NCBI GenBank assembly: GCA_029339195.1
Contig: JAPTJF010000132.1
Span: forward strand, 1 to 64,000
Length of the DNA: 64,000 nucleotides
Direction of reading: 5' to 3'
Origin: Micractinium sp. NFX-FRZ
Lineage: Eukaryota > Chlorophyta > Trebouxiophyceae > Chlorellales > Chlorellaceae
Position 1 is the first letter of the stretch, and every line of letters starts with the position of its first letter. Positions 1 through 64,000 of this stretch are shown in pieces. The notes beneath the pieces were generated by a model. It did no database searches and was not told the DNA's origin. It worked only from the letters and a program-made list of their open reading frames with translations. Position numbers and translations under genes: made by a program.

Positions 1-3000
1 CCCTCTGTGCCCTGCCCCTGGTCGGGCATCGCCCCTGAGAGGCCCAAGTACTTGTCTTGCAGCTTGGCCCACATCCCATCCAGCTCATCATCTGAGAGGC
101 AGGCAGGCAGAGCGGGTGGGTGGGTGGGTGGGTGGGTGGGTGAGTGAGGAGTGGGGTGGGGTGGGGGAGGGGAGGCAGGGTGCCCGATTCCCAGGGCCCA
201 TGGGAGCTAGAGCAACTGCCAACAGCTGCCCATCACATGCCAGCGATACAATAGCAACGAATCACACCGAAAGCAGCCAGCATGACAAGCGCCCCTGTGC
301 CACCCGACCGCTCTCAGGCGAGTCATCCCTACCATCCCATGCCCACCACACGCCACCCACCCGCTCACCGCTCTCAAAGGAGTGGTCGATGACCACAGAG
401 GTGTCCAGCTCATCACGGTGAGGCTCCCCCGCCAGCAGCGTCGACTGCCAGGACGGCCAGGCGCACGACAGCACCGGGTGCAGCCCCTCCTCAGCCAGCA
501 GGGAGGCGTAGCTGCAGCGGGAGAGGGCGGGGCGGGCCACGGGTGAGCGGCAGCGGGCGCTCACATCTCCGAGCTGTGTGGCGTCCTTCAGCAAGCTGCA
601 GCCGCACGCTCGAGCGGCCAGGCCCCCCCAGCCCCTCCCTCCCCTTTGCCTGCACTCACGTGTTTGCGCGCGCGCGCTCCCGCCGCTTCGTCTCGCGGCT
701 GTTGTACGGGTAGGGCGGGTCGATCTCACGCACCTGTGTCGCGTGGGAGGGCAGAGTGGGAGGGTTTGGGAGGTGGAGGGAAGGGGGAGCGGGAGCAGGT
801 TGTGGGAGGCGGTGGCGGGTAGGAAGGGTGCAGATGTACGCATAGGTGCAGGGGTGGGGGCATCAGCAATCCCGCATAAGCAGTGGCCAGGCAGTGGCCA
901 GGCAGGGTCTGTGGTAGCAGTGGACTGTGAGCAGGGCAGCCTGCTGCTGCGGGTTCTACATGAGAACGGCAGGCCCACCCCAGCTACCGCACCCCAGCAC
1001 CACCGCAACGCGGGCCCTCACCGTGCCGTGGCCTCCCTGGTTGCATACCACGTCATCCTCACGAGCCCGCGCCCCGCCCGCCTCGCCCTCGCCCTGCCGC
1101 GCCAGCAGCGCCACCTGGCGGGGCGTCAGCGACTGCGTCAGCGGGGGGCAGCGGAGTAAGGTCAGGGACCAGGGGCACGGGGGGCATGCTTGGATGAGGC
1201 ATGCTTATCAGGTGGAAAGGACGCTTGCGTGTGATGGCTGGTGTGAGCACCCAGTGCCCCGTAGGCCTGCCAGCCCTCCACCACTCCAACCGCGTGCCAA
1301 GCGCCTTGCCCACGGCAACTGCACACCCTGCCCCACCCACTGGCAGGGCGTTGGTGCAGCTGCAACCACCCAACCCAACCCAGCCCAGTTCTACTGCAAC
1401 ATGGCACCACTGCAGCACCAGCAGGCACCCGCCAGCTGGCATGTGCAGGCACCGCAGCAAGTTGTCAGCCCAACAAGAGAGGCACCCACCGGCATGGCGC
1501 TGAGGTCCAGGTGCGCCTTCTCCCCGTTGACCACCACATACACGCTGGTGGGGGCCTGGCAGCGGGGGGGGCCGGGGAGGGAGGGCAGGACGCAGGTGGA
1601 CGCAGGTGAACACAGATGAACACAGGGGTTGTTGCTGTTTTGGGAGGGCAGCAATAGGGGTATTGAGGCGGCACCAGGCAAGGGTCAAAGTCTCGGGTAG
1701 GGCCCTCACCATATGCACCAAGCTGCTCGGTGCCAACACCTCCACACCGGGCTGCTTCGCCTGCTTCTGCTGTGCTGCCCTGGCTCACGCTCGCCCCCTC
1801 CCCCTCTTCTTCTTCTTCTTATCCACCACGCCGGCCAGCTCCCACCCCCACGCCCCGCTCACCACATACTCCAGGTTGGGCGAGTCGTCGTCAAACTGGG
1901 CGCCCCAGCTGTGGATCTGCACGCCCGTCACAACTGCGGGGTGGGGGGGCGGGGGAAGGGGGCAGCGGGAGAGCCAAAGAGTGAAGGGGGGGCGGTGGGG
2001 GGCAGAAGGAGGAGGGTGACGCAGGGGCAGGGTGCCACCCCCTTGCCGCCCCCCAGCCGGCTCACCGCAGCAGTCTGCCTGACGCGGGCCCACACCTCTC
2101 GCTCGCCGACCAGGTGCGCCACCACAAACCCACGCCAAAGCAACCCAGGTTTGCGCTGGCACAAGCTCACCGGCGTAGCCCGCCCTCCAGGGGCCGCACT
2201 TTCTCTCCAGTCCAAGCGCTCCACCCCACCCAACCTAACCCATAGCAGCCAGCCCGGTGCCAGCTCACCTGCGTAGTCTGCCCGTCGCGGTTCCACCGTG
2301 CCGCAGACCAGGCCCTGCAACCCAAACCCACACCCCAGAAACACAAGGGACCCCGGTGCCAGCTCACCTGCGTAGTCGGCCCGCCGCGGCTCCACCGTCT
2401 CGCTGATCAGGTGCTGCAGGTCGTCGGTGATGGTGCGCTCCGCCACCTGGGTGATGTCCACCAGGCTCAGCTGGGAGACTGCAGGACAGGGGGGGTTGCG
2501 GGGAGGGGGGGAGGAAGGGGAGAACAGAAGGGGGGAGATGAGGGAGGGGAGGGGGTGGGGAGGGTGGTGCGCTTAGCAATGGGGTTGGTCCGCCGGGCTC
2601 AGCTGGGAGAGTGCGGGGGAGGTGGGCATTGAGGGGAAGGGGGTGTGGGGGGAAGAAGAGAAGGGATGCGGACCTTGGGGGGAGGCGGGGAAGGGGTGAT
2701 GCTGATCTCGGGGGAGGAGGGGAAGGGGTGGTTGGCGCCTGCCCGCCGGCCTGCCGCGCCCACCCTGCACCCACCTGTCTCCTCGCTGGCGCCCTCGAAG
2801 CGCAGGCGGCGTGCGATGCGCTGCTTGAGGATGGAGAACTCGGGGTCCCGGGCATCGTGCACTGCGCAGGCGGGTGTGGGTGGGTGGGTGGGTGGGGCCG
2901 CAGGTGAGGCCGCTCGCGATGCCAGAGCCGGTTGGGTGCATCATGCACTGTGCACCAGATGATGCCTGGCGTCCAGGTCAGGAGGTAGCTGTGTGACATT

Positions 3001-5112
3001 GGAAAATGGGAGTGCAAGCACGCCATGCGAAGTGACGCGCAGGTGGATGGCAGGGGTTGGGGCAGGGCAGGGGCACGGTGAGGCAGAGCAGGGGCCAGCG
3101 GGGAGCCACTCGGGCGCTGTAGCACCCATGGCATGCCATCAGACCGCCTCACCTCCCGGGATCTTGCAGTTGCTGGCCAGCCCGTCCTTGCGGATGTCGG
3201 CCAGCGCCTTGTTGAGCGCGCCGCAGGCGCAGCCCACGCCGGGGCGGCCGGGGCGGGAGATGGCACCCACGTTGCCTCGCGCGTCAATGCTGCGGGGGGG
3301 CGGCGTGGGAAGTCTTTTGTGGGCGGGTGCAGCGGCAGCGCAGCCATGACGCGGGGCAGGCAGGCAGGGCAGGGCAGGGTGGGCAAGGCGGGGTGGGTGT
3401 GGGCATGACGAGGGTGGGCGCATGAGTGGCAGGAGCAGGGCAAGAGGGACGACGCGCCGGGTGGTGCAGGTGGCCAATGGGCAGGGCGGCGGATGCAGGC
3501 GAGAGCAGGGCATGCGCGTGGCCCCGCAGCGCGCCCTCCTCAGCACGCACACACGCCTGCCGCACCGACGCCGCCTGCCCTCACCTGATGTGGGGGAAGG
3601 AGAAGAAGACGTACCGCTCCTTGCCCGAGCTGCGGGACACGGGGGCGTGGCTGCACGGGGGGGCAGACAGGGAGGGCGACAGGGGGGGGGGAGGCAGGGG
3701 CAGGGTGTGACCACCAGCCATCTCCCGCTCTCACCACCACCCCACCCCTGTCCCTCCCTCCACGCAGTCGCCCAAAGCCCAACAACCCACACGCGGCACC
3801 CGCCCCATGCAGCCCCGCAGACCCCCGTCCATCCGCATGACTGCCTCTAGTTCAAGCCCATACCTGAGCCCCGCGGCCACGCCGCTGACGCCGCAGGTGA
3901 GCACGCCGCCCAGCCCGTTTGTGTTGAAGGACGAACCAAACACGGAATCGATCTTCTGCTTGAGGGTGACGGTGACCTCGTCGCGGCACAGGTTGACCAT
4001 GGCTGCACCATGGGGCGATAGGGTCACATGACATAGGGATGCAGAGAGGCAGGTCCATCTTGTGTCTGCCTGTCTCGAGCGTGCCGCGAATCTCGCCACA
4101 GCACAGGTCTCACCATGGTTGCGGGCGGCGACAGGGTTGCAGTCCAAGCGTCAGGGTTCACCACCCCGCCAAGCTTTCACAGCGCCTGCCCTCGCCCCTG
4201 CTTCGCCGCCTGCCCCTCCCTCGCCCTCGCCCTCCCTACAACTCCCCACTCACTGATGGAGTTGTCGTTGCTGAAGCCGTACGCATACAGAGCGATTTCC
4301 AGGCGGTTCATGAAGTCATCAGCACCTGGCAGGCCGCCAAGGGGGTGGGACGGGAGCAAGCCGGCACTGGTGGGCACAAGTCATCATCTGCTGCGAGGCT
4401 GCTGCTGCTGCTGCTGCTGCCTGGCCGTGGTGCTGGAAGACACGCCTGCCCAAGCCCTTGCACGCATGCCAAACAACACGCCATGCGGGCACCCAGCAGC
4501 TGCTAGCGCAGGCAATCGTGGTCTTGCACAGTGCACCCTGCCCAAACGGTGGGCCTCGGCCTGGCGCCCGCTGCCTCACCCACTACCCATCGGCCCTCAC
4601 CCCGCATGCAACGCCTCAACTACACCCACCCTCCCATCATGGGCCCGTTCCTCGCACCCTTTCACCCCCCACCCCTCACACCCCAAGAGCCCCTCACCCT
4701 TTTCCACCCACCCCTCACACAAGGTCCCCCCACCCCACCTCCCCTCACCCAGCGCCCCGGGGAAGTGCTTGCAGACGAGTTGGGAGCGGCCTGAGAGGTA
4801 GGCCACCTCGCAAAAGTCGCGTAGCTGCTTGGACCCCGCACCATCCAGGTCCTCCTCGAAACCCGCCAGCAGCGCCAAGGCAGCAGAGTCGGGCGCGGCG
4901 CGTGGCGGCAGCGGCAGCGGCGGCTGGGCGGCGCCGCCGCCAATGCTGTCGCAGGTGGCGGCGGTGCGTGTCGGCCGCGTCCCACGATGCAGATGCAGTG
5001 AGCCGGCACATGGGGGCCGCAGTCCGGGCGCCGCATTCTGTCCTCCCGGAGCTGCTCGACATGCTCCCGTGCTAGCAAGTGCCGCGGGCTGCGCAGCAAT
5101 CACCGACTGCAT
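1..5112 (-). CDS. LCIB: LCIB-family limiting-CO2-inducible protein (beta-carbonic-anhydrase-like fold), 3' end outside window
   Basis: Thirteen exons can be followed, 5' to 3' on the minus strand: 5112-4749, 4325-4254, 4002-3864, 3629-3585, 3289-3153, 2861-2775, 2478-2368, 1933-1863, 1555-1490, 1132-1022, 733-660, 511-369, 91-1. All phases join. The start was chosen at the ATG at 5112 because it opens a chloroplast-leader-like segment (MQSVIAAQPAALAS). The core follows Chlamydomonas LCIB/LCIC closely: FPGALGADDF, NLCRDEVT, FGSSFNTNGLGGVLTCGV, FFSFPHIS, GAISRPGRPG, CACGAL, DPEFSILKQR, ERTITDDL, VYVVVNGEKAHLDLS. Cys of NLCRDE, His of FFSFPH and Cys of CACGAL are the likely zinc ligands. In Chlamydomonas, LCIB acts around the pyrenoid to recapture leaked CO2. 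After the usual LCIB end there is an unfamiliar extension (exons 10-13, with VREIDPPYPYNSRE and SDDELDGMWAKLQDKY) running out of the window. The family call is very secure; the extension's function is unknown. Confidence 0.93.
117..149. repeat. (GGGT)n microsatellite
   Basis: About seven GGGT units lie in an LCIB intron. They could form a G-quadruplex. They are not a plant-type telomere repeat (TTTAGGG). Confidence 0.85.
2056..2405 (-). repeat. Four-copy ladder of the LCIB exon 7 3' end with splice donors
   Basis: On the minus strand the true exon end (CGGCGGGCCGACTACGCAG, then GTGAGC at 2367) is repeated downstream in the intron. A near-perfect copy ends with GTGAGC near 2269. Two weaker copies end with GTGAGC near 2169 and 2064. 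The second copy stays in frame and is preceded by TTGCAG, a possible acceptor. Confidence 0.82.
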
Positions 5113-17874: not shown

Positions 17875-20800
17875 CTAGGCCAGCTCGCCGGTCTCTGCAG
17901 GCTCAGTGGAGATCCCGTGCCGCTCCGCCTGCACAGCAACATGCAGGGGACCCGCATGCAGCTCGCACGGTCAGCCGCTGCCTCTTGCCCGCGCGCCACC
18001 TGCGCTCCCTGGTGCCAGCACCATGCCAGCCCCATGCTCGTCAAACTCTGGAGCCTGCTCACCTTCATCTCCTCCCTCATCGCCTCCACAAGACACTCCT
18101 CGTCTGACTCGGCACCACATGCTGCCTCCACGCCGCGCCGAGACGCCTCGGCCAGCTGGCAGCAGGGGCGGGGCAGGGGGCAGGGGGGAAGCGGGCCAAG
18201 GGCACCATGGTTGTAATTTGCACGGGGACAGATTGAGTGAGCACAGGATGCCAGGATGCGGCATTCAAGCTCGGCCTGTGATCGCAGAGCTGAGAGATCT
18301 CCCTGGCCTCCCTGGCCTCCACCTCAACACTACATGTGCCCCCCTCCCACCACGTTGGTCCCCTCACCTCCACTTCCTGCCTCCCCATGAGCTCCAACCA
18401 CATACAATACATTGCCAACTTCGTCTCACCTGACCTTCCTGTGCCCTCAGTTCTTTCCCCCGCCTCCTCCTCCCACCACGACACCCACCTGAGTCGCACA
18501 CACTCATCTCACCCACTCCCCTGCCATGCCCCCATGCCTCCATCTGAACCTCCTGCCCCCAGCTCTGCGGCCACCGGTCACACCCGTCTAGGCCCCACAT
18601 ACCCACCCCACCCACACTCCCCCACCTTCTCCTCCTTGGCCCCCAGCTCTGCGGTCACCTCCTCGTCCTGGCGCGCCCCCACCAGCAGGAACTCGCAGCG
18701 CTCAAACTCCAGCAGCTGCCAAGGCAGCAGGAAGGGGTGAGTAGGGGAGGGGTGCACGGGAGGTGTGGGTGCATGGGAGGTGTGGGGTTGAGAGGTGATG
18801 CAGGCTGCCCCACGTGCTGGCAAAGTCCGACTTGAACAGCTGAGGGGCGGGGTGGCATGAGTGAGTCGGAGTGTGACACAAGGCTTGCAAGGCATGGGAG
18901 GTGGGGGCACAACCAGGGCAGCAGGGCAAGTTTGCAGCACTCGTGTGGCACCAGCAGCTGATGCTGGGTCAAGGCGGGTGGCGGTGGGCGGGTACAGGGT
19001 GAGGTGTTTGCGCAATGGTGGCGGAGCGGCAGGAGGCGTCGGCGAGGCGGAGCAGGGCGCCCTGCTACCCACCTATAGATGCGTGCAAAGCTTCTCGACC
19101 GTGTGCGGGTGGTACTGCCCAACGTCCCCTTTCTCACCCCTCGGCATGTCACTCGGGCTGGCGGCGTGAGAGAAATGGACTACTACAGTATCCCACCCCA
19201 CCTGCGTGTCCCGCACGGGTATCCAGCTGTAGTACTCAAACTCCCTCTGCTTCTCCTGCGGGTACTCTGCCTTGCGCTCCAGCCCAGGGTCGCCCGGCCC
19301 CCGCCCCGCCGGGTTCTGCCGGGGCAGCAGTGGTGGGGCGTGATGCAGGAGTGTCTGGGGCTTGCGCCGGACAGCGGGCACCCAGGTCAACACAGGCGCC
19401 CTCCCACCCTCCTGCCCACACGTGCGCATGATGCCCACATTGAGGTGCAACCCCTGGGCAGGCAGCATGAAGTCTGTAAGCAGCCGACACAGCACTTGCC
19501 TTGACGGTGAAGATGAAGGAGCCCTCCAGCCCAATTGTGAACTCCAGCTGGGCCTCCCCCGGGGTGGAGGGCACCTCCAGCCTGCACGGATGGAGCGGTG
19601 GGGAGTGTAGTGTCACGGGACGCCACAACACCCAAATGATTGCTGATGCGCAGCAGTAACACACGACAGGGTGTTGCGTCTTGACGTTGACGTCTGCCCG
19701 TGGCACGCACGTCACACCTCGGTTCGTGGGGTGCACAGCAAGCAAGTGGTGCGCGGCAGCACTGACACTTCCTGCCTGGCAGGTGGGCAGTGCGGCAACG
19801 GGGTACGCCGTGGCAAGTGGATGAGCAGGCATGCATGCATGCATGCAGGCAGGCATCCACCTGGCTGGCAGCTGTGCACGTGGCCCACACGGTGGCTTGC
19901 CCCCCTCCACATGCCCCCACCCTTGCTCCCACGCCTGCTCACTTGTACACAAGGTTTGTGTGGTCCTTGTGCTCCACCACAGCATACGTCCCCTGGCCCA
20001 GCGCACGGCAGGCGCCCAGGTGGCGCGTGCCTGCGGGGGGGAAGGGCGGGTGCAGGGGGCGGGGCGGTGGGAGCGCAGTGTGGGGGCAAAACGCAGTGGC
20101 TGGGGAGTGGGGGCTGGGCTTGGGCCGGACAAGCCATCAGCTGGTGACAGCACAGCGCAACACAGCAGAGAGCAGTGCGGCCTACGCCTTGGCCTCATAC
20201 TCCCGAGAGCCCACAACACATCCACACCACCGCATCTCTCAAGGCCACAGCACTGCACATCACAGCACAGCACAGCACACCCGCCTGCCCGCCTCACCCC
20301 GCGTCTTGGTCTGGTACTCCTGAGGGCCCAGCCCCGCCAGCAGCTCGTCAGGGTCGTCCGAAACAGACTCCACAAAACCAAAGAAGCGCTGCGCGGGCGG
20401 GTGGGGGGGGGCGCGTTTCGTGGAAGGGCCAGGATGGTGTGGGGCGGCAGCCGCTCAGGCAGCCGGGCAGGCAGGCAGGCAGGCAGGAACACTGGCTGCA
20501 TCGCTGCTCTGCCACTGAGCCCCAGCACCTGTGTTGGACATGCTGTCTCGCCCACCGCTGCGGCGGCTGCTGCAACTCCATCGCCCCTCCAGCCCGACCG
20601 CCTGCCACCACCTCCCCCCACGCCCCGCCTGATTTGACCCACCTCGTACGATTTGACCCACCTCGTGGCGCCGTGCCGAGGGCAGCCGCTTCTTGCCCAC
20701 CACGCACAGCCGGCTCTTCACCCCCTGGGCATGGGGGCGCAGCAACATGAAGAAGCGCTGCACGTCTGCCAGGCTGGCAACCTGCCCACGCTCCACCTTG

Positions 20801-28390: not shown

Positions 28391-29328
28391 ATGCTGCGTG
28401 TCGCACATCTGAGGCTGGTGCGGCTGCAGGGGCGGCTCCCTGCCGCTGCTGCGGGCACCCGCGGGCTGGCCACCGAGCCTCGGGGCGACGAGCACGTGCT
28501 AGTGACGGAGCAAGAGCAGGTGAGCCCAGGAGTCGGATTGGCGACTTGGGGGCGTCGCTGAGCACTGCCGCCGCGGCAGTGCCGCCGTACGCCGCCCCGC
28601 CCCCGAGGCAACCCTTCCACCCCTTCTGCCCCCAACCGTAATGCCCCGATTGGTTTCGCTGATCCCACTTTATGACCCCCCAGGGACACCTGCTGGAGCG
28701 CATGCAAGATCCCGAGGAGGTGCGCCGCCTGCTGCACCTCAAGCAGCAGCACCACTGGCACCACTCTGACAGCCTGCCCCACCTCATGACCAGCGAAACC
28801 ATGGCCGACACCATCCTCAGGTGGGAGGGGTGGGGTGGGGCATGCTTGGGGTACACTTGTACTGTGTGGGATGGGTGCCTCTGCATGCTCGGCAGGCGGC
28901 CGTGCCAGCCACCAGTGTCGCCTCCCCCCCACCCACGTCAGTGCCAACCCCTGAACCGCACCCGGCGCCTTGCCACCCACCCTTCTCCCATCCAACAGGG
29001 AGACGCTGGAGGCGCAGGAGGTGGGGCGGGTGGGAAGCCCATGTGACATCCTGACCAGGCTCTGATAGGCAGCAGGGCCCAGTGTACGGAGCGGCCAGAC
29101 GGCTTGGGCCAGCCCTGCTCAGTCCCCCACAGGCCGAATTGGGAAGGCGGGTGCAGGCCCAGGGGGGTCGTGTGACACACCCTACCTCCTGCCCCTTGCC
29201 ACTGCTGCCCGCAGGCCGACTTGGAGAGGCGGATGCAGGCCAAGGGGAGCAAGGTGCTGTGTGAGCACGGGCATGAGCACGACGTGTGCTGCGGCGCCAG
29301 CAAGGACGAGGTGCAGGCGGAGGAGTGA
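28391..29328 (+). CDS. Small His/Cys-tailed protein, unknown function, 133 aa
   Basis: Exons: 28391-28519, 28684-28820, 28999-29020, 29215-29328, in phase (402 nt). The N-terminus (MLRVAHLRLVRLQGRL) is a typical mitochondrial-style amphipathic leader. A charged helical middle follows (HLLERMQDPEEVRRLLHLK, then HHWHHSD). The tail is rich in His and Cys (LCEHGHEHDVCCG) and could bind a metal. No family is recognised. The intron before the last exon holds a degenerate in-frame copy of that exon's start (29133-29174). The call as a gene rests on four phase-consistent exons and an ordinary intron pattern. Confidence 0.64.
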
Positions 29329-30766: not shown

Positions 30767-30809
<43 letters not shown>

Positions 30810-33023: not shown

Positions 33024-33343
33024 AGCCGCTCCCCGCAGCTGGGGCCGCCCCGCGCAAAGCGGCACAAAAAAAATCACAGTGCCAGCGCAGGCTCCGCACA
33101 CTGCTCAAGCTGCGCGCTTGCTCATAAGCAACACAGCAGCCAGGAGCCGGTCCCAGAGAGCCTCCCGCAAGGTGCGCACAGCTGGCGGCGCAGCATGCAG
33201 AACCTGCAGTGGCAGCCCAGCGACGCCAGCAAACCCTGTGCCCTGAGGCTCCCTGGGTTCGTTTCCCGACTTCCAACAACATTAACATGCTCTGAGGCTC
33301 TCACGAGCCGAGTTACACACGCTCCAAGGCGAGAGCACAGGCC
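33024..33343. promoter_or_regulatory. Divergent promoter region, SNF5 / SMP-C2 gene
   Basis: 320 bp separate the two divergent ATGs (33023 minus, 33344 plus). An A-run (ACAAAAAAAATC near 33064-33075) lies inside. No TATA box is obvious. Nothing else is seen. Confidence 0.45.
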
Positions 33344-36300
33344 ATGGCGGCCCAGGATGGTGGCGCCGCCGCTGGCAACCCTGGGCTCCCAGTGAACGTT
33401 ACACAAGACCTCCAGCAGCTTGCGGCAGCAATCCAGGCGCTGCAAAGCGGCGCACGCCCCGGCGGCTTCCTCGTGGGCCTTGTGTGCGGGTGCCTGCTGG
33501 TCACCGCTCTGGTAGCTGCTGCATGGTGAGGCGAGCGGACGCTCCTCTTTTTTCAGTAGCTGGTCTCTCAGAGTCCTCGCGCATCCCTCCACACCCCGTT
33601 TCTGCCCCCGCTGCCCTAGACCAGACCAGCTAAACGCGAACCGCTTGAAAGGCATCGCCCGCGCACCCCCCTGCCCCGCCCCGCCCTGCCCTTGCCCTGC
33701 CCTGAGGCACCCCTCCCGCAGGCACCGCCACCGCTACAGCATCCGCCGCCTGTTTGAGCGCCAGCAGCAGCGGGACGCCGTGCGCCACCTGTCCAGCCTG
33801 GATGCAGCGGAGATGCACCGCCTGCTGGGGGGCGTCAACCTGCCGTCCTGGGTGAGGCTCATGGGGCGTTCAGATGTCGAGCGGTGGGCGGTGAGGATGC
33901 ATGGCGCCAGCGGAACTTCTGTTGAGAAGCAAAGGTGGACGGCAGGGAGCACGAGGAGCAGGGAGGACAGGCAGGCTGCTGGTGCGTTTGCCACACACAT
34001 TGTCTGCCTCCCTCCTGTGCGCTGCAAAGCTGCCCACCCTGCCCTGTCCCAACCACCAAACCCCCGTGTCCTCCAAACATCTGCTACTCGTGCCCCTCTA
34101 CTGCCCACCTGTGCTGTTTGTGTCCCACTGCTGTCCACCTCAACCCACTGCCACGTCACTGCCACGTCGTGTCCACCTCACCATGCCGGGTCACCTATAC
34201 ATACTGGAATAACACCAAATCATTGCTGCCTGGCACCATTCCACTCCAGCATTCTCCACCTCTGCTCCCGGCCTCGCTGCCTCCTCATGTTGACCACTGC
34301 CACCGCACTGCACTGCCACCTCAAACTGCCCCCGCTGCCACCTCACCATGCCCCCTCACCATCATGCTCATGCCAGGTCACCTACCCCGACTACCAGCGG
34401 GTTCAGTGGCTCACCACCCTCCTCCGGCAGCTGTGGCCATTTGCTGCCCAGGCAGCCGCCGCCTGGGCAGAGCAGGAGGTGCCTGCGATGCTGCAGGCCA
34501 ACAAGCCATCCTGGATGCGCTCCATCAAGCTGCACCACTTCAGGTGAGGGGCGGGGTGCAAGCAGAGGCGTGGGCAGCAACCCGGCAGGGCAGACGACCT
34601 TGCAGGCTCGCCCTTGCAACAGCCGTCCCCGCCAGTAGCAGCGCTGCCTGCCCTCGAAATCTGCTGGCCCGCTTCCCTCTCAACCTAGCTGCTGGGGCAT
34701 GCGCCCTGGGCCCCCTGCAGCCTGGGCGCTGTACCTCCTGAGCCGCTGGGGGTCAAGGTGTACAGCGAGGGGGAGAGCCGGAGGGACGAGGTGGGTGGCC
34801 GCATGGGTGGGTGGCTGAGCGGGTGAGCAGCTTCCTTCTAATACTTTGGGCTTGAGAGGTGGGAGGAGGGTGGGGCGCTGGAGGCTCGCTGCGGTGGCAG
34901 CTGCCCCTACAAAAGTGCCTTGTGATTGGCTGACAAGTTGCCAACGGCAGGGGCTGCCGGGCGGGGGCCCTGTGCCCGCAGTTCCACCCCGCTGCTGCTG
35001 CTGTTGAGGCCTTCTTCCGTCACCTGTCCGCCTGACTCATGGCCTGCCCCGCCCTCTTCCCTCCGGCATGCCCCACCTGGGCCAACTTTTCTCCTCCCTC
35101 CTGCTCAGGCTGTCATCGATTTTGACTTCAGCTGGACCGGGGAGCAGCGGGTCAGCTGTGAGGCCAGCCTCGTTTGGTGTTCGTGCAGTCAGAGCTCATG
35201 CCTACACACGTGCTTGCACTGCGGCAGCACACGCAGCGCAGCACGCGCAGCGCAGCAAGCGCAGCGCAGGTGCGCGCTGCGCACCCTGGCCCACGGGCGC
35301 CGGCCCTACACGCCCCTGCCGTCCCATGCACAGCACCTCCAGCCCGTGCCAAGCCCTTCCCTGCACACCCTCACCTGCGCAGGTCAGCTTTGTGGTCAAG
35401 CCTGTGCCGCGGGCGGCCAGCCATGCCGTGACTCGCCTGCCTGTGGCCGCGCAGCTCGTGGACACGGTGGGTGGGTGGGCGGGAAGGGCGGGGCGGGGCG
35501 GGACGCAGCTGGGCTGGGAAGCGCGCAACGGCAGGGCAGTGCCAGAGCAGCAGTGCCAGCTGTTGTGCCAGCTCAGCAGCCGGCTGGCTTTGTTGGCCCT
35601 GCCACAACATGCCAGCTCAGCGTTCGTATCAAGGCTCCTTCAATATCGTCACACGACACACTTTCCTAAATGCATCAACCCTCACCTAACAACTCCCCTT
35701 ACCTCCCGCCTAGCTCAGCAACCTAGTGGCGGCCAAGGCGGCAGTGGAGAATTTAGTGATGATGTGCACAACACTCCAACACTGCCTCATGCCCTCGACC
35801 CCCTCCCAACGTCCCAACCTCCCAAATTGCCAGCTGAGCAACCTGGTGGTGATCAAGGCGGCGGTGGAGCGGATGACGATGCACGGGCGGCTGCGCCTCA
35901 CGCTGCGTCCGCTGACGAGCCAGCTGCCGCTGGTGGGGGCGGGTGAGTGGGCGGGGGGGACACCTTTCTCCCAGCAGAAGAATGCAAGCTGGGCTGCTTT
36001 AAGGACACCCTGGGGCATGAGCCCCGGGGATTGAGAGGGTAGGCGGGCAGCGCCTGCGTAGCGAGCGTGGCAGGGGGCCAGGAAGCGGGCAGAGGTGGGC
36101 GTGCCCCGCTGCCCACCTGCTGAGCTGGCACGGCATGGCACCAGGAACAACACCCATCCAGCCACCTCCCACCACCACTTTCGTGCCTGCATCCCGCACC
36201 ACCGTTCAGCCGAATCCCTGCACGGCAGCTTTCGCCAATGCTACCCCCCACCCGCCCCCTCCTCCTCCCGTTGCCCCCCAATGCTGCAGCCCAGGTCGCA

Positions 36301-39300
36301 TTCACTGAGCTGCCCAAGTTCTCCTTCGACCTCACCGTGTATGGCGGGGACGTGTCCATCCTGCCCGGCCTGGAGACCTGGCTGCACGGCCTCATACAGG
36401 ACGCTGTGCTGCGCCCCTTTGTGCTGCCAGAGAAGTAAGCACTGTGCTGCACTGCTGCCGGAGAAGTGAGCACTGTGCTGCGCTGCTGCCGGAGAAGTGA
36501 GCACTGTGTTGCGCCCCTTTGTGCTGCCGGAGGAGGGAGCCCTGTGCTGCGCCCCTTTGTGCTGGGTGGCCTGCGCGAGAGACGCCACTCCAAGCCGTCC
36601 CGCCCCTCCACCCCAGACTGCGAGGCGGGACCCCTGACCCATGCTGTGTGCCTGCCGGTCCCCCCAGTCTCCGTTCCTCTCCCTCCCCTGCCGACCCTGC
36701 AGGCTGGTCATCCCTCTGGCGGACAATGCTCCCGCCAGTTTTGAGCGCCCTCGGGGGCTGCTGCAGGCGAGGCCCTGCTGGGCCCGCTGGTAGTTGGGGA
36801 GGCGCACGCAGCAGCATTGTGTCGGCTGCACAGCTGTCTGTCAGCCAGCAGCAAGAAGCACCTGCCAAAGAGGCTTCACGCTGCGTGGATCAAGCCACCT
36901 ACCCGTCTGCCTGCCTGCCTGCCTGCCAGGTTGCCTGCCTGCCCGCCTGCTTGATCGCTGCCCTGCCCTGCCCCGTGCGCAGGTGCGTGTGTGCGAGGCG
37001 GAGCATGTGCCCCGCATGGACCTGCTGTCAAAATCGGGTGAGGGTGCCAGGTGGTAGTGATGAAGTGGGGCGGGGGGGAGAGAAGGGTGCACAGGGTAGT
37101 CGAAGCTGCCCTGCCCCGCATGCCAGTCCAAACAATGGCGAGGTGCCTGGCAGTGTGCAGATTTAGCCCCTGTGCGTCGGTGCCCCCCAGCCCCCTTCCA
37201 CTGCTGACCAACCAGTCCTTCCACCTCGGCCCTGCACGTCACCCCACCCCACCCTCCCACCCACCCCACCTGCCCCTCTGCCCAGACCCCTTTGTGGTGC
37301 TGTCGGTGCGAGAGAAGAACAAGGTCAAGACGCAGGTTGGGCAGGGGGGTGGGAAGGTGGGTGGGTGGGCAGGCGATCGCGAGTGCCAGTGGCGTGGACC
37401 GCCTGCCTGTCTCCCCACATGCAACGGCCCCTGGAAGACACATGCACAACCTTGTGTGGGAGGAGGACGCCACTTCATGCCTGTCACACACACGCCTCAC
37501 GCCCCCCCACTGGGCGTGGCACGCAGCAATTCTCAGCCTCACCCCTTTCACCCCAAAGGCCCCGCTGCGCACCTCCACGTCGCCCCGCACCCCCGGCAGG
37601 TGCTGGAGAACACGCACCGCCCGGTGTGGGACGAGGACTTTGCTCTGCTGGTGCACTACCCAGAGACACAGGTGCCATCCGTGCTGTCGTGTGCTGTGCC
37701 ATGCTGTCGTGCAGCATGCCGTGCCGTGCTGTGCCGTGCCGTGCTGTCGCTGGTGCGCTGGTGCGCTATCCCGAGATACTTGTGGCTCGTGCTGGCTTGG
37801 GCTGTGCCCCTGTGCCACATCTACAATGGGTTAGCAATGACAAGCCTTTGCCGGGCCTGTACTCTTCCCACCATGCATTCGGGCCGCACGTTGAGATTGG
37901 GCATATGGCTGAGGTGGCGCTCCCTGGCCCGCTGTCCCATTCACTGGCGGCCTCTCTGCATTGATTGATGCTGTCCCCCCGATCCGCCCATCATCCACAA
38001 CACCCCTTACACCCAATCCATTTTCCCCAATGCTGACAGCCCCTCTGCACCTGTGCTGGCCTTCCTGATTGACCATCCGCCGTAAGAGTTCCAAATTTGG
38101 TGATTTTGATTCCTCTTTATCACCAAGTTCAAACTTGTCTGTATTTAAATCGACAATGAATTTTCGTCCCCTTCCATCCACAGATGCTGACCGCCCGCAT
38201 GTACGACTACGACCCGTTTGACCAGAACGACGAGATCGGGCGCGCTGAGGTGGCGCTGCGCGACCTGCCACGCGGGCGTGAGGTGGACCAGTGGCTCGCC
38301 GTGGAGCCGCCCCACCAGGAGGGCAAGCCGGCCAGCCAGAAGTATCACGTCTCGGTGGGGTGGGTGAGGTGGGGTGGGGTAGGCTGGGCGGCGGCTGGGC
38401 GAAAGTCAGCATGCAGCGACAGCAGCAGCACAGGCCTTGCCTATTCGCAAGCTATGCATGCGTTGTGCCCAGGGGCAGCGCATGCATGTGCGCTTAGCAT
38501 ACGAACAGGCAGCACACAATCGCAAGCTGCGACGAGCGTTTAGTGAGGGCGCGCCAGCTGGGCCCTCGCTGCCTGTAGGTTGGTTGGGTGGCAACAACCT
38601 GGCTGTGCCTAGTCATCACAGCACAGCAGGCGCTAGTTTATGCATGTTTCAAGTGCACACTAGCGCACAGGCCAGGCTGACACCCTGGCTGCCCGCAGGG
38701 CAACCCTCTGTCCCTGGCTGTCCAGGCTGGGCAGAAGGTGGTGGGGGCGCTGATACGGCCGTGGGACACGGCAAAGATGGTGGGAGGGGTGAGGCGCAAG
38801 GCGAAGCGCGAGTGCCGCCTGCACCTCAAGGTACGGTGGGTGGGGAGGGGTTGGGTGGGGCTGGGAAGCCCTGCCCCGGGTCGTGCAGCGCTGGATTGAG
38901 GATGGGCCTCCACAGGCTAAGTGTGGGCAGAGATGGGTACACGAGGGACGAGCCAGGCAGCGCTATGATCCTCCTCAGGCACCAATCACGCCCTGCTCCC
39001 AGGTTCCGCCCCGTCCCTTCCCTTCCCAGCAGATGACGTTCCTGGAGTTCAAGGAGGAGGAGGTGGAGGCGGCGCTGGCGGTGCACCACAACATGGGCAG
39101 GTCTGGCGACGGCGCCATGGGCGCCATGGGCGAGGCGCTCTCCCACGCCAGCCCCGCCGTGCGCAAGGCGCTGCAGGGCGGGGTGCTCTGCCTGCGCATT
39201 CTGCGGGTGAGCTGGCGCTGAGAGGCAAGGTTGCCTGCGCCTGTGACGACGCTGTGTGGTTTGGAGGGGCGTGGTCTTGTTTCTACGCGTAAGAAGCGCT

Positions 39301-46500: not shown

Positions 46501-49500
46501 GAACCCCCCGCCCTTTGAGGGCGGCGTGCAGGTGAGCAGAAGGGCTGCACTTCTAGCCAGAGGCAGCAGTGACCTTGCTGGCCTGCCTTGCTCCCCTTCT
46601 GCATCCCTCCCCTGCTCGGCTGCCTCTTGTGTGCTGCCTGCTGCCGCTGCCTGAATGTGTGTACCTGTGTGGTACATCACGGGGGCTGTGTCCCAGGGCC
46701 CTCCGACAACACGCCAGCATGCGCTGTCCAGCTGTTGCTTTTCGTCCCCGGCATGATCAAGTTTGTTTTCGAAAGCAACGGCACGAAAAGGCCTCCTCCG
46801 ACCCACCTGCCAGCCTCTGATCAGCTGTTGCGTTTCTCCCTCCTGTGCGCACAAAAACAAACAAAAACAGGAGTGGTACCAGATGGGCACGGACGCCTTT
46901 TCTGCTGGCGGGGCGGACTTCCACTCCATTGCCTTTGGCTCGGACAACACCGCATACCTGGTGAGCGAGGGTCGGGCCATTGGGTGGGCGCCAAGGCAAA
47001 ACGGTGTGGGAGGGGAGGAGGCGCCAAGTGCAACGCGTCAACTACTTAATTGCCACCTATGTGTGTGTGCGTGTGTGTGTGGTGTACTAATCTAGAAATT
47101 CGAGAGTGCGCCCCCCCACAGGCCTTCCAGGACGGCGGCGACAGCGAGCGCCTCAAGGTGGTCAGGTGGAGCATCCCCGACCGCGACTGGGTGATGGTGG
47201 GCAACGACGCCGCGTCGCTGGGGGCAACCATGTTCTCAGGTGACACTACCGCCACTGCATGCACGTGCTGGTCAAAGGAAAGAAGAAGACATTAATGACA
47301 GTGGGTCGGGAGGGAGGGAGGGCACTAGGGGTCAGGGCGGGGGGGCACTTGCCAGTGTGCCACCAGCTGAGTTGATGAGTGTGGCCGGCTCCCCTCCTGC
47401 ACGCAGGCCTGGATTCTGGGGACGTGCCCACGTGCACAGAGGCATGCAGCTTGTGATGCAGAGCCGCCAGCTCAGCTTTCCTTGCTTCGTGCCAGCTTCC
47501 GATTCGGCCACTAAATTGCGGGGCCCAACTGGCTTTCTTATGCATGCAGGCCTGGCGCTGGACTCTGGCGACGTGCCTTACGTCATCTTCCAGGATGAGA
47601 CAGTCAACTACAAGGCCACCGTGCGGCGCCTGAATTACGACAACAACGAGTGGGAGGACGTGGGCACAGGTGGGGTGGGGGGGGGGGTGAGGCGGCAGGC
47701 AGTGTGTAGATGGGAGTGATGGGTGAGAGGACAAAGGCACAGGTTGGGGCGGCAAAGTGGAAGGCAGGCGGGGGCAGCCAGGAGGTGCAGGCTTCGCATC
47801 ATGCGCTTGCTGCGGCTGCCCGCCTGCTCGGCCCAGCCCCCGCTTGCAGTGCACACACTGGCCCCTCCCACCATTCCACCACGCCCCGTTCCTCCCTCCC
47901 TCCCTCCCTCCCCTCCCTCATTCACACCCTCTGGGCCACGCCCCGTCCCTCCCTCGCTCACGCCCGCCCCCTGCCCAACTCACTTCCCTTCCCTCCCTCC
48001 CTCGCTGCCCCGCCCCCGCCATCTGCAGCCGGCTTCTCCGAGGGCCGCGTCGCCTACCCCTCCATCCAGTTCGACTCCCAGGGCCAGACCCCCTACGTCG
48101 CCTTCTCAGATGACGGCACCGAGAGCGGCCCCGACAAGTCGCGCGCCGCCGTGTATGCCGCGCCCGCAGGCGGGCAGTGGGAGGCGGTGGGCCCCGCCCG
48201 CTTCTCCAACTCCTGCACTCACGTGCGCCTGGCGCTGGACAAGGCAAACACGCCCTACGTGGCCTTCATCGAGCGGGAGAGCAGGAAGGTTACGGGTGAG
48301 GCTTGCGGGTTGGGTGGTGGGCGGGGCGGGGGCCCATGCAGGGGAGGTGCGCGTGCCAGGCGGGGGAAGGGAGGCGGGGAGTGTTGGGGGGCGGGTGTGT
48401 GCGGGGGGGGGGGGCGGCTGAGACTTGAACGCAGCAGATCCCAAGCCACCCTCCACCCCCACACCCCACACCCCACGCACACAAAGCGCACGCCGACCTG
48501 GGGGGAAGTGCACACACACACACACACGCACATTTCAACAACCCCTCCTCTCCTTTGACCCCCTCCTCCCTCTGCCCGACGCTCCCCAGTCGTGCGCTAT
48601 GACGGCTCCGCTGTCTATGAACCCATCGGGCGCGACTCGTTTACTCCCGACGCGGCCAACCACCTGTCCTTCACTCTCGACACGGCCGGCAACACCCCCG
48701 TCCCCTACGTCTCCTTCAAAGATGAGGGCACACCCGCACAGGTGCGACGGACGGCGTGGACACGTCTGCGCAGCGCCCCGTGGCGCTGTGCCCCCCCACA
48801 GAGGGCGGCCGCCCTCTCTGGGGGGTACTGGCTGTGCCCGACCTCTCGTGGGACGGGCAGGGGGCACACCTGCCCAGGTGCATGCGTGCATGCCGCACCT
48901 GAAACATTGCCTCTCAGAGCAGCGGCTGAGCACCAGCACAACCTCGAGGCCAGCGCGCTCCGCCCAGCAGGGCCTCACAAACGTGTGGCAGAGATGCCTT
49001 CCCCTATTGCTTCAAGGCTGGAGCCCTCTGGGGCAGCGCGCCTTTTCCAGTGCAGTGTAATCGGTACACATGTGTTTGTTTATGACCAGCTGGATTGCCC
49101 CCCCTGTGCAGGGTGCCACGGTGATGCTATGGGATGCGGCGGCGCGCACGTGGCGCGTGCTGGGCAGGTGCGCGGGCGGCGGTGGTGGGGTGTTTGTGTG
49201 TGGTGTGGTGGGTGGGAGGGAGCGGGGTGCGGCATGGGTGCAGCCAGGCATAGCGCATGCGCCAGCATGCCCGGTGCTCGCGTGACTGCTGTCTAGTGCT
49301 GCAGGCCCCACCTGGAGCAGCCGAGTGCGGGCTCACCCCTGCTCTGGAAACCACTGCAGTGCTCCCCACCCTGCTGCTGCGCCTGCCCTGCCCCCCGCCG
49401 GGCCACGTGGCCCCACCACCCTTGGAGTGCCTCCCCCTGCCTCCCTCCCTGCCCACCCGCAGGCAGAGCTTCAGCGAGGGCGAGGCACCCTGGGCTGTTG

Positions 49501-53674: not shown

Positions 53675-56600
53675 ATGTTTATAATGACACAGGGACGGCC
53701 GGTGCGAAGAGGCGGGCCTGACCCGCAAGGCAGTAGGGCGCGCTGCCGCGTGCCGCCGCCGCTGCTCCTCCTGGCACTGGCGGCAGCTCTCCACGCAGCA
53801 GCAGCGGCAGCTGCCGCGGGGGCACCCAGCCTCAGCAGGCCGCCACCTGGGCGCTCAGGGGATCCAGATTCGAGCATTGAAGCCATCCTGGGTGAGGCAG
53901 CGCCTTTCGCCTTGACACAGCTGGAGGCAACCGCAGCGCTCGACCTGCCAGCCGGCATGTACCCAAACGGCACTGATTGGACGCATCGAACGGGGGAGTG
54001 GATGACGACAGGGCCAGAGAGGTGGACTGCAGGTGTGTGGGCGGGGGCGCCGGGATGCGGCGGGGACTTGTTTTTGCCGGCACTGACAGCGGGCACCCTG
54101 CTTGCAAGCCGCCTGCACGCCGTGCCGCTTGCAGGCGCTGCCGCGGCCTCCTTCAATTGCCAACTGCCCCGCCCTGCCCTGCCTGCCCTGCCCTGCCTCT
54201 CATGCAGGCCTGCTGTGCGGCTGCTACTGGAAGGCGTATGCGCTCACAGCCGACCCCGCCTGGGCTGAGCTGGCGGCCGACCAGCTGGAGGGCCTGCGGG
54301 TGTACAGCTACGAGGTGCGCTGCCCGAGCGCGGGCCGCTTCTTGTTTCGTCTGCCTGTGGACCCTTGAGCTTTTATTTGGTGGTGGTGCTGGTTTGGACG
54401 AGGCAGGCAGGCACGCGGGGAGGATGCGCAGCTACGAGCTGCGCTGCCGTATGGGAGCATGGGGTGAGGCAAGCAGGGGGCGAAGAAGCGATCGCCCTGA
54501 TGTGCCCCTTCGGCACGGCTCTCCCAGTGGGCCCACCCGGCTTGCCTGCATGCCTGCCCCCCTGCCCGCCCCCAGACTGGCGCCGTTCCCTGCCCTTGCT
54601 GCCACAGCAGTGGCGCTCCACATGCCCCACTCGCGCGCGGTGCCCATCCGCCTTACTCTCCCCTCGCCCCCACCTCTGCACCCTCACACCCCACAACCAA
54701 TCAATCTATCTATCAATCTATCAATCTATCCTGCAGGGCAAGCTCACCCACGACTTCATAGCCTCGTTTGGGGAGGCGCTGGATGCTGCTGTGCCCGGGA
54801 CGCCCAGGGAGGAGTACGAGGCAGCCCTGGTGGCGGCGACCGAGGTGCTGGCGGGCAGGTGGGTCCCCGCCTGCTGATGCCCTCCCTGCCTTGCATGAGG
54901 CCGGGAGCTGAGCTGGCAGTTGGGTGGGGCGCTCTCCTGTGAGATGGCTGGCCGCCGGTGGGAGCCGCATTAGGGAGGCAGTCAACAAGTGTGTGGAGGG
55001 AAGCAGCGCGTCATGCGGCACCTGCTGCTGCTGCTGCTGCTGCGCTCAGCGCGGTTGCCGCTCCTGCCTTTCCGCAGGTTTAGCAAGAAGGTGGGGGCGG
55101 TGCGCATCTGGGGCACCAACGAGCACACCGATGAGTTCAAGGTGAGGGAGGGGTGTGGCCACGCTTCACTGCGCGGCCAGCAAGTGCGGCAAGGTACAAG
55201 TAACTGCAGGATGGGGCGGTGATGCGGCTTGTGGAGCGCACAGTCTGCAGCCACGTGGGCCCCTGCCACCCCTTCTAGCCCCCTGCCCCGCCTTCTGGCA
55301 CTCCCCATTGCCCCTGCCTCGTGCGCCTGCCCTTCCCCTGCCTCACTCTCGAATGAACAGATCACTGTCAACGAACTCAATGCCCATCCAAACTCCTTTC
55401 CGCTGCTTTTCCCTTCCGTGTCCCCTTCACTCACTCGCGGCGAAAGTTAACTCTGTGACCCCCACCTAGCACTTTTCTTTCAACCCTCCCCTTCTTTCTT
55501 GTTCCTCGTTTCCCCTTCTCCACCCACCTCAGGTGATCATCGATTCCATGGCCACCCTGCACCTGCTGGTGCTGGCCTCCCGCCTGCCGGGCGGCAAGCG
55601 GGAGTGGGCCGACATGGCGCTGGCCCACGCGCGCACCATCACGCGAGACCATTTCAGGCAGGCCGAGCACAGCACAGCACAGCACGGCAGCACAGGCCAT
55701 CACGTGCCGGGATGCGCGCTAGGTGGCAGCCAGCCCGGCAGCGGGGGGGGCCACACTGCCCCCTACCTGCACCCCAGCAGCCTCTATCCCTCTCCCTTCC
55801 TTCCCGCCACTCTTTTTCCCTCACCTTGCATCTTGCTCCCTGCCTTCCCCTCTGCAGGCCGGACGGCAGCACATATCACCTGGTGGTGTACGACCCACGC
55901 ACCGGCAGGCTTCTGTCGCAGGGCACCCACCAAGGGTTCTCTGACAACAGCACTTGGTCCAGGTGGGGGCCGGGTGGGGTGAGGGGGTGATCCCTTTCAG
56001 GGGTGGTCGTTTCACATACGGAGCTCCCTGATGCGGCACCGGGCATCCAGTTTGGGGGAGCAGGGCGTCTGTGCGGGGGCTGCAGAGTATGAAGGGTGCA
56101 GGATATAAATGCCAGCTGCCTGCTCCTGCCCGACCTGCCTGCGCCTGACCAGCTCCTGCAGCCTGCTCTCAACTGACTTGTGCTGCAAATGCCCATCGCC
56201 CTTGCGCTGCCTGTGTTGCGCGTGCAGGGGCCAGGCCTGGGCGGTGGTCGGGTTCACCCACATGGCGCGCGTCACCGGCGACCCAGCCCTGCTGGCGACA
56301 GCTCAGCGCGCCGCCGACTACTTCCTGCTGCGCCTGGCCGAGGCGGACGATGGCGTGCCGCTGTGGGACTTTGACGTGCCTCCCCAGGCCAAGCAGGTGG
56401 GCGCTGTCATTCATCGGACAGCCTGCCCTCAGGCTGCCTCCTCCCACCCCGCCTGGTGGACTGAAGGAGGAGCTCCATTCTGGGCTGCCTGCCTCACATC
56501 ATGTGGTGACGTCAGCACCACGAAGCTGTCCCTACTTCACGCCACAAACGCCCTCAGCCTCACCTCAACCCCACCCAACTGCGCCCCACTCCCCCACTGC

Positions 56601-57342: not shown

Positions 57343-58920
57343 TCACGCCCCCACACCCCACCGCCGGTTGGCACCCTGGCAGCGCTCCATCAAGTGCTGG
57401 TCAAACTGCTCGCTCTTGATGACCTGGCACAGCACGGGCAGCACGGCGCAGCACAACAAGGCTCAGCATGGCAAGCACAGCGCGGTGGCGAAGCGCGCAG
57501 CGCGCGCCATTGCTCCCCGCCTGCCCTGGCAGTCCTGCTCCCGCGCCGCTCCTGGTGCCACCATCAAGAGCGCCCGCCAGCCACCAGCCTCATGTACCCT
57601 GCTGCACCTCAGCTCTGCTGTATCCTGAACCCTGCTGCACCTCAGCTCTGCTACCTCTGAGCCCTGCTGCACCTCAGCTCTGCTGCACCCTGCGCCCTGC
57701 TGCACCTCAGCTCTGCCCACCCAGCCCACCTGGTCCATCTCGTGGAACGGGTTCTTCAGCACATAGTCGCAGTACAGCTCATACACCCTGGCAGCACAGG
57801 CGGGGGGGAGGGGCGGGGGGGGCCAAGTTGGGAGCACGCAGCCTGAGAGTGTGTGTGTGCATTGTCACGTCCGCAACCCGCCGCCGCTGCCCGCCTTCCT
57901 GCAACCCACGGGCGCATGCCTTGGCGCACCACCCCTGCCCCGCCTGCCACCCTGCAGGCTGCCATGTGCAGCAAGTCGCTCGCTCTCGGCACCGCCTCCC
58001 TTTGTGCCAAACCTCCTGCATCTCCCGCAGCGCACGCCCAGTGCGGCGGAGCGCTAGCCTCGTGCGCAGCACTGCCACCCCCCGCTGTCCCCTCCCCCCT
58101 TCCCCACAGCACAGCGCAGCGCTCACGTCGTGCGCAGCAGCTCCGTGGCGTCTGGTGTGTGCGGCTCCGTGAGCAGCATAAACGTGGTGCCCGTCAGCGT
58201 GTGGAAGCTGTGCAGGTCGAATGTGTCTGCTTGCATGAGCTGTACGGCAGGCGGGGTGAGCAGCGGGAAGGCAATCAGGTGGGCAGGCAGGTGGCGGCTT
58301 GCCGATCAGCTGCCTGCCCGCAGCGTGTGGGAGCACTGCAGCCCAGTTTGGCAGAGCAATCACGTGGCATGCAAGCGTCGAGACGTTGTGTGCAGCACAG
58401 GCACTGACACGATGTTTGGTATTGTGTCTGGCACAGGCACTGGACGCATGATTGCCAGTCGCTTGCCACAGCCGACTGCTGAGGGCGTCTGTGCAACTGA
58501 CGAGGAGCATACAGCCGCTCCACTGGCAGCACATACACACCTGGATGCCGCTGCTGTCAGGTACTGGCGAAAGCTGCGCCGAGATGCCGCACATGCCAAA
58601 CCTGCAGGGGGATGAGAGGCATACAGACTCGGGAGACGACCTGGTATCACGGAGCGGCAAGCGAGGCAGCAGCGGTGAGCGGCAGCGCGAGCAGTGCGCA
58701 GCGGCACAGACACCCACCAGCTGCTGGCCAGCCGTAGCTTGTCGTTGAACTCGATGGGCGGCAGTTGTACAAAGTCCTGCGAGCGCAGGCAGGGAGGCCG
58801 GTGGAGGGGGAGAGCACGCGCGGAAACAGAGGAGAGGCAGTAGAGACATTCCGCGCTTACCCTGCTGTACAGCAGTCCTCCATTGCGTCCCACGATCCAT
58901 AGAGAGTACAGCGCGGGCAT
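57343..58920 (-). CDS. TRAPPC4: TRAPPC4 / Trs23 TRAPP tethering-complex subunit, 143 aa
   Basis: Exons on the minus strand: 58920-58861, 58776-58718, 58601-58541, 58239-58127, 57787-57730, 57423-57343 (432 nt, in phase). The longin-fold sequence follows human TRAPPC4: MPALYSLWIVGRNGGLLYSR, FNDKLRLASSWFGMCGISAQ, LSPVPDSSGIQLMQADTFD, LHSFHTLTGTTFMLL, VYELYCDYVLKNPFHEMDQ and IKSEQFDQHLMER. It lacks the internal PDZ-like insert of animals, as plant and yeast forms do. TRAPP complexes act as GEFs and tethers in ER-Golgi and Golgi traffic. The ATG at 58920 begins directly with the longin strand. The gene is divergent from the PfkB kinase gene. Confidence 0.92.
57590..57718. repeat. Minisatellite (about 30-bp unit) in TRAPPC4 intron
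   Basis: Four copies of a unit with core CCTGCTGCACCTCAGCTCTG, spaced by variable CTGTATCCTGAAC / CTACCTCTGAG linkers, lie in the last TRAPPC4 intron (57424-57729). Some units carry CAG and polypyrimidine, so on the plus strand they resemble splice acceptors, but the gene is on the minus strand. Confidence 0.85.
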
Positions 58921-62234: not shown

Positions 62235-64000
62235 CTACGCCTGCTCCTCTGAGCTCCCGCCGTCGGCATTGCCACCACTGCTGCTCACAGGCCTGCTCTC
62301 ACACTCCTGGCTAGTGCTGCTGGCACGCCTGCTCCCCTCGGACTGGCTCCCCTCGGTGCTGCCGGCCCGCTGCTGCAGTGTGCTCAGCAGCTGCTCCGCC
62401 TGGTCTGGCCCGCAAGACAGCAGGCGAGCCAGAAGAGGCACCAGCTGCTGCGCCTGCTGCCCACCGTCGCCAGCCGCCAGGAGCTGAGGCACAGCAGCGC
62501 CCAGCGCCACCGCCCGGGCATGCGCCGCAGCAGCCTGCTCCCCAGCCACAACCAGTGCGGCCTCAGCAGCCGCCAGAGCCCCTCGGCGCGCCTCCAGCTG
62601 CTGCTGCATGTCGAGCGTTGCGCTGAAGGCTTGCGCTGGCGGCTTTTCTGGCGCCGTTGTGTCCGAACCATCCTCCGCTGACATGGCGGTGGCCAGCTGG
62701 GCTTGCAGCGCCGCCACCTCCTCCTGCAGCAGGGTGCCAGCCAGGCGCGTCACATTCCGAAGGATTGCACGTACCGATCTATCTGTGTGCCCCCCTGCTA
62801 GGGCATGCTGTGGTCAATCGCGCTTGCCAGGTTGGTACCAGCAAGCAATGGTACCGCTTTGCCAGCCTGCACCGTAACCCGACTGCTGCCATCCAACCAA
62901 GCTGCCTCACCTGCAGCAGATCCACCTGCAGCTGCACCGCCGCCGCCGCATGCTCCGCGGCTGCCGCCTCGGCCGCCGCGTGCTGCGCCAGCAGCAGGTT
63001 GGCGCTGCCCAGCGCCAGCGAGGCAGCAGTGACCTGCTCAATCACCGGCGCAGCGGCTGCTGCCCCCGCCAATGCCCCTGCCGCATCAGCTGCCTTCACT
63101 GCCTCCGCTGCATCAGCATCCCCCACAGCCTTGACTGCCGCTGTCGCATCAGCTCCCTCCACTCCCTCCACCCCCTCCACCTCTGGGCTGAATGAAGAGG
63201 AGCCGTAGACCGGGTTGCTGGTAGTGCTGCTGCGGCCCGCAGCCGCCTCCTCTACCCCCTCCTCCGCCCCTGCCTCCAGCCCCTCACTGGTGGGCGCCTG
63301 GCTGGCGCTGAACAACGGGTTGTCGCTGCTGCGGTTGCTGCCGCCCCCAGTGTCCTCCGCCTCTGCCTTGGCGCTAACTGTCTCCGCACCCTCGCTGGTT
63401 GTTGGCAGCCGGCTGATCGGCCCAGAGCTGAGGGCGGAGGGGCAGAAGAGCGGGTTGCTGCTGGAGCGGCTGCTGCCGCACGCTGCAGCCTCCACCTCTG
63501 CCGCTGCAGCCTGCGCCTGCGCCACCGCCACTTCTGCCTCCTCACTGGTGCGCTCCGCGCTGGCGCACCCACCATGGCAGGCGGCCTCGCAGCCGCAGCC
63601 GCCCGCGCATTCACCGCCGGCCGAAGGGCCGCGGTTGAACAGCGGGTTGCGCAGCAGCGAGCTGCGCTGGCCGTCGCTGGCAGCGGCGGGCTCCCCAGCG
63701 GCAACGAGCGCCTGCAGCTCCGCTTCCAGTGCAGCCGCCTGCTCCTCAGCTGACGGGAGGACACGCCCCAGGGCAGCAGCTGCAGCCTCCTCCTCAGCTG
63801 AGGAGCTGCGCAGCACCTGGGGGATCCCATCCAGTCCGTACCGATCCAGGCCGTAGCGCTGCAGGGCAGGCAGGTGGGAGGAGAGGCAGTTTGGATGCCA
63901 GGTGCGATTCGGGCACAACACAGCATGGCACGGCACAGCATGGGTGCCGGCAGGGTGCAGCGATGCGCAGCCCGGCCGGTCAGAGGCACTGGGAGGGTGG
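62235..64000 (-). CDS. Ala/Glu-rich low-complexity protein with NPLF repeats, 5' end outside window
   Basis: Two coding segments are clear on the minus strand: 63858-62911 (316 codons, open at both ends in phase) and about 62770-62235 ending in a TAG stop. The junction between them is not resolved. The first segment opens with RYGLDRYGLDGI and Glu/Ala helices (SSAEEEAAAAALGRVL, AEEQAAALEAELQALVAA). It then carries four spaced copies of a short motif (LLRNPLFNRG, SSSNPLFCPS, SSDNPLFSAS, TTSNPVYGSS), one Cys-rich patch (GGECAGGCGCEAACHGGC) and long Ala/Val helices. The second segment is coiled-coil-like (LAGTLLQEEVAALQAQLATA). No known domain is recognised. It is probably a cytosolic or scaffold protein; 5' exons lie beyond 64000. 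Confidence 0.62.

Follow-up and report, generated by a model that had tools for sequence, protein, structure and literature searches.

Why do the introns of a green alga hold pieces of the exons that border them? The question is raised by a stretch of 64,000 nucleotides from Micractinium sp. NFX-FRZ (hereafter the window; C132:1-64000), part of a 66.07-Mb assembly with 838 contigs. A sequence-only reading had claimed nine direct repeats of exon edges within adjacent introns of this stretch, and all nine were found:

2049..2418, minus strand: LCIB/C-type carbonic anhydrase gene (model 1-5011; Pfam LCIB_C_CA), exon end and donor repeated
20631..20666, minus strand: exact 17-nt repeat across the donor of intron 20389-20661, spacing 19
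29133..29165, plus strand: exon start 29215-29247 copied in intron 29021-29214, acceptor side, spacing 82
35714..35749, plus strand: exon start 35834-35869 copied in intron 35467-35833, acceptor side, spacing 120
36404..36588, plus strand: exon end 36404-36434 with its donor, plus four copies in intron 36435-36702
37757..37808, plus strand: exon end near 37647-37671 copied in intron 37672-38183, donor side, spacing 110
47409..47428, plus strand: exon start after 47549 copied in intron 47240-47549, acceptor side, 18/20
49441..49498, plus strand: acceptor and exon start (49539-49596) copied in intron 49168-49560, spacing 98
54422..54448, plus strand: 54298-54324 copied in intron 54315-54736, donor side, spacing 124

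Each 60-nt exon edge was compared with its own intron and then with the introns of all other genes. For seven of the nine repeats, at most one of 586-619 control introns matched the exon edge equally well. No control reached the score of repeat 2056-2405 (42/51 identical; 614 controls) or of the copy at 29133 (28/33; 619 controls), and the same held, against 586 controls each, for the copies at 35714 (30/36), 36420 (27/29), 47406 (18/20) and 49463 (28/31); a single control of 586 equalled the copy at 37760 (19/23). The remaining two repeats are weak by this test. The one at 20641 includes only about 5 nt of exon and was matched by 81 of 596 controls; the one at 54428, whose source comprises 17 nt of exon end and 10 nt of intron (54298-54324), has an exon part of 10/10 nt that was matched by 80 of 620 controls, its whole repeat being 27 nt at 85%.

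Two of these repeats include more than one copy. In the LCIB/C-type gene, the exon end 2368-2418 and its donor recur within intron 1934-2367 with a period of about 98-100 (best copy 2269-2319, further copy 2049-2103), and a long duplication, 2253-2418, is an 87% repeat. The starts of the array at 36404..36588 are spaced by 31, 31, 38 and 38, with the last copy 62% identical. The gene hosting the copy at 35714..35749 is extended synaptotagmin-like, with Pfam C2 and SMP domains detected in the 33-40 kb gene of the window. The nine repeats fall in five gene models; because five of them share one model (33.3-50.2 kb) in which two or more genes are probably fused, the six genes originally counted are about right.

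The analysis was extended to 304 kb from seven contigs (the window and 240 kb more), corresponding to 0.5% of the genome. Gene models were predicted with a self-written, trained gene finder, which returned 48 genes and 631 introns with a clear predicted splice consensus (CAG/GTGAG at donors, TGCAG/G at acceptors). The 627 introns with both flanks clear of block ends were tested, and four were dropped. When 60-nt exon ends were aligned with their own intron under a window-based complexity filter, 68 of the 627 introns contained a copy of an adjacent exon edge, as compared with a mean of 1.2 introns (range 0-4) in 20 pairings with length-matched introns from other genes; the rate is thus 11% in the sample from this one alga. 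The copied edges, spread over 24 genes, comprise 35 donors and 39 acceptors, in agreement with the claim that copies occur on both sides. With 40-nt ends and a local alignment score of at least 15, 32 donors and 32 acceptors, out of 627 each, matched their own intron, whereas length-matched introns of other genes predict 0.25 and 0.20, respectively, and dinucleotide shuffles yield 0.1 and 0.0; a rate no higher than that of shuffled sequence, which the sequence-only reading had named as grounds for abandoning its proposal, was thus not what was observed. Copies occur in each of the seven sampled contigs, and hence beyond the window. An earlier tally, likewise of 68 introns, placed 15/174 in C132, 24/127 in C1, 9/85 in C60, 2/84 in C200, 2/42 in C400, 5/44 in C600 and 11/71 in C12, and the copy rate therefore varies widely from block to block. 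Exon-edge copies are real and lie far above chance.

The repeats have a characteristic geometry. Within 700 bp and at a score of at least 20, 188 were direct and 2 inverted, and direct repeats at 5-5.7 kb numbered 9. Removal of overlaps left 114 non-redundant events: 50 exon edge/intron, 27 intron/intron, 14 exon/exon, 11 exon/intron, 10 edge/edge and 2 other. Spacing was 75-132 bp in 40 of the 50 edge/intron events, in all of which the exon part was 66 nt or shorter, and the spacing quartiles of exon-bearing events were 99, 112 and 127.5; arrays reach five copies. Copying was limited to roughly 60 nt at the exon margin: copies were found for 31 of 435 edges and for none of the 435 stretches lying 60-120 nt inside the exon.

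We consider the edge copies, with a probability of roughly 0.6, to be what can still be seen of direct (tandem) duplication acting locally within introns on units of about 50-130 bp; short local duplication acting as a steady process, over the birth of new introns, is the most likely account. Such duplications may arise through replication slippage or break repair. A unit lying wholly within an intron would soon pass beyond recognition because both copies drift, whereas a unit placed across a donor or acceptor would deposit 20-60 nt from the exon's end or start within the intron. Conservation of the exon partner would keep this exon-derived copy recognisable about twice as long, and differential decay would thereby favour edge copies. 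The splice site adjoining the exon body would remain in use, with the protein therefore unchanged, while the copy in the intron would decay unconstrained and the duplicate splice sites would not be spliced. Observed among these features are the excess, the direct orientation, the unit size and the decay of the copies, as well as an unchanged protein at 7 of 8 copy-bearing junctions in the one gene checked. The originally suggested tandem duplication over splice borders agrees with many of the copies.

Complete units were examined among 113 of the 114 events, one with a spacing over 200 being dropped. In 38 of the 113, the whole unit lies head to tail (aligned over at least 0.75 of the spacing), and the other 75 are partial. 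Of the complete units, 16 touch edges, 17 lie within introns and 5 fall in other classes; simulating random placement gave edge-to-intron ratios of 0.36-1.56, a range that depends, as do all of the simulation results, on the chosen decay settings. The observed split lies within this range, and targeting is therefore not needed for complete units.

The partial events behave differently: 54 are exon-bearing with intron and 10 are intron-only (11 exon/exon events left out). A neutral model was used for comparison, and its indel rate was validated against intron-only pairs, with 0.10 gaps per mismatch simulated against 0.097 observed. At divergences of 0.1-0.2, which match the observed identity, the model gave edge-to-intron ratios of 0.24-0.87 against the observed 54 to 10. 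The ratio rose to 1.4-2.5 at a divergence of 0.25 and to 6-12 at 0.3; the latter would imply an identity of about 0.755, as compared with the observed 0.83. The edge preference of partial events thus exceeds the calibrated decay model several-fold, and a second, edge-limited copying process beside tandem duplication is possible. Such a process, specific to splice borders, would insert the outermost 25-50 nt of an exon, together with the splice motif, at an intron position some 110 nt distant; conjecturally, a polymerase switches template at an intron motif resembling the splice consensus and then returns. The product would be the exon edge and up to about 12 nt of intron, with the intron flank not duplicated, and splice borders would be repeated targets in roughly a tenth of introns.

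We hold this alternative to be rather unlikely. Besides their preference for edges, partial events have a short intron part (median 9 nt beside 36.5 nt of exon; simulated intron part 11-33), and the intron flank was similar in 42% of the 31 events with an exon identity of at least 0.9, as opposed to 89% in simulation. A flank similarity score of 12 was reached in 34% of 73 events, compared with 75% when indel-matched events with uniformly distributed ages were simulated; however, plain tandem duplication gives similar flank figures if divergence is mostly near 0.2. Similarly, indel-rich decay yields comparable ratios, the observed one being reached at about three times the measured indel rate. 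The lengths of 43 host introns point both ways: relative to the median for duplicate-free introns, length minus spacing was lower (p 0.013) and length minus copy higher (p 0.011). On balance, tandem duplication with differential decay is taken as the main cause, and an edge-limited second process may contribute.

A competing explanation, that the copies serve as alternative donors, acceptors or small exons under selection, is improbable, even though GT or AG is kept in about half of them and the gene finder called some as exons, for example in an importin gene. Over 3,066 aligned exon bases, mismatches by codon position were 0.101, 0.108 and 0.145, and indels were mostly of 1-2 nt and frame-breaking. 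The copies have diverged by a median of about 17-19%. GT was retained in 20 of 38 donor copies, with GC in 10 more, and AG in 21 of 39 acceptor copies; this retention of about half is close to the expectation for neutral divergence near 0.2. Spacing modulo 3 was 27/23/28, with no preference for multiples of three. On the strength of the near-even codon-position mismatches, the short indels, the half-lost splice dinucleotides and the missing frame preference, the copies look like decaying sequence rather than conserved alternative exons, and the spacing and mismatch figures speak against alternative splice sites under selection. The suggestion that many copies are in frame is accordingly not upheld, nor is that of in-frame alternative exons, since the copies appear unconstrained in all of these respects; the usable splice signals ascribed to them are present in about half and lost in about half. 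Among the real donors that are paired with copied donors, 5 of 39 are GC, as compared with about 2% across all predicted introns.

Individual genes bear on the same point. A flavodiiron gene (C1:48831-54949; 28831-34949 of the fetched C1 block), whose predicted protein is 77-78% identical to those of Micractinium conductrix and M. tetrahymenae, has copies in 8 of its 13 predicted introns. At seven of the eight copy-bearing junctions, five homologues align gap-free within 12 residues and hold no extra residues, showing the predicted protein to be unchanged there; the eighth junction adjoins a probable false exon of the gene model.

An importin-7/SAD2-like gene (C12:100001-110000, fetched as L022), with a predicted protein 87% identical to the importin of M. 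conductrix, is the richest sampled, containing 21 of 93 copies; the protein identities of these two genes place the genome in Chlorellaceae. One array in the importin gene contains pieces of 100% identity surrounding an N run. No second copy of the region, sought in the genome as an empty site, was found. Some 110 bp lying between exons (C12:103280-103390; L022:3280-3390) recur in at least 20 other genomic places at 76-94% identity and are probably part of a transposable element. In a dispersal search with one 3.9-kb stretch, in which the best candidates were scored, at least 24 matches besides the stretch itself were obtained, 23 of them in L022:3280-3553; this segment lies between exons and resembles a transposable element, not an edge copy.

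It is very unlikely that the copies record the making of introns, whereby a new one is created when an exon piece bearing an AGGT-like site is duplicated in tandem. Introns born in this way would repeat at both ends at an offset equal to the intron length, and one intron of 627 does so on the exact diagonal, at a gapped score of 13. At lower ungapped scores there is a small excess (at score 9, 9 cases, whereas 20 permutations averaged 4.15 and never exceeded 8; at score 10, 3 cases against 1.2), whereas at an ungapped score of 12 none of the 627 introns has such a repeat. Gapped alignment yielded 15 cases (permuted mean 1.5), of which 14 miss the exact diagonal; two of the cases are self-overlaps of 43- and 46-nt introns, and at least four, in the importin gene, are copies miscalled as exons by the gene finder. 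The edge copies themselves sit about 110 bp from their own edge, within longer introns. The seeding or moving of introns, as originally envisaged, is not supported, a both-end repeat on the exact diagonal being present in 1/627 (gapped). The sole intron of this kind (C1:26019-26238; 6019-6238 of the fetched block) is a candidate for such an origin by tandem duplication.

An origin of the copies in chance, composition or assembly error is highly unlikely: the sequence is GC-rich with many simple repeats and an N run lies inside an array in the fetched C12 stretch, but matched introns, shuffles, inverted and distant controls were all near zero, chance and composition were rejected at 68/627 introns against a control mean of 1.2, and assembly error would not produce copies with so large a median divergence.

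Several known systems resemble these duplications in part. In potato, an intron has reportedly been gained by tandem genomic duplication. Intron gain through the tandem duplication of exon segments that contain AGGT is treated in a review (PMC3443670) and in a Drosophila survey (PMC2891723). The likeness lies in a short tandem duplication that touches exon sequence and splice signals; in that process the duplicated segment itself turns into the intron, with repeats at both of its ends, whereas in this alga one border is copied into an intron already present, whose ends are unpaired, bar the one candidate. Internal gene duplication is said to have been proposed as a source of introns by Gao and Lynch in 2009, and human introns from tandem arrays by Zhuo et al. 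in 2007. Those cases share local duplications within genes and tandem arrays with splice sites; here, by contrast, a 50-130 bp unit straddles the border and the copy appears to decay unspliced. Intronic minisatellites and short tandem duplications arise from slippage or paired nicks, and they share with the present events the direct orientation, the short range, the head-to-tail complete units and the arrays of up to five copies; unlike them, the partial copies here strongly prefer exon edges, beyond the decay model. Tandem exon duplication, which can give mutually exclusive exons, likewise repeats exon sequence inside a gene, whereas the edge/intron events copy at most 66 nt of exon and include one border; this size and the 0/435 inner stretches copied speak against duplication of a complete exon with both splice sites. 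Introners, which are transposable intron families, also affect many introns of an alga, but each copy here matches its own neighbouring exon. Among the matches listed from algal and related literature, at the level of titles and abstract openings, no description of exon-edge copies at such a rate was found.

Were the same rate to apply across the genome, exon edges, being conserved, would mark intron duplication that is otherwise invisible, and the rate of intron growth could therefore be estimated from one genome without relatives. The copies also show how frequently a duplicate of a genome's own splice site is tolerated, and how such duplicates are lost. A genuine edge bias would suggest a mutational process linked to splicing or transcription.

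Local repeats are also present outside the introns of interest. Many of the 14 exon/exon repeats fall within one long predicted gene (region 62238-77626 and others), and examples inside coding sequence are found at 63073-63169, 63237-63566 and 64593-64728. Two minisatellites were detected in the window, one at 9478-9627 (42-bp unit, 3.6 copies, 93% matches) and the other, within a predicted intron, at 57596-57716 (33-bp unit, 3.7 copies).
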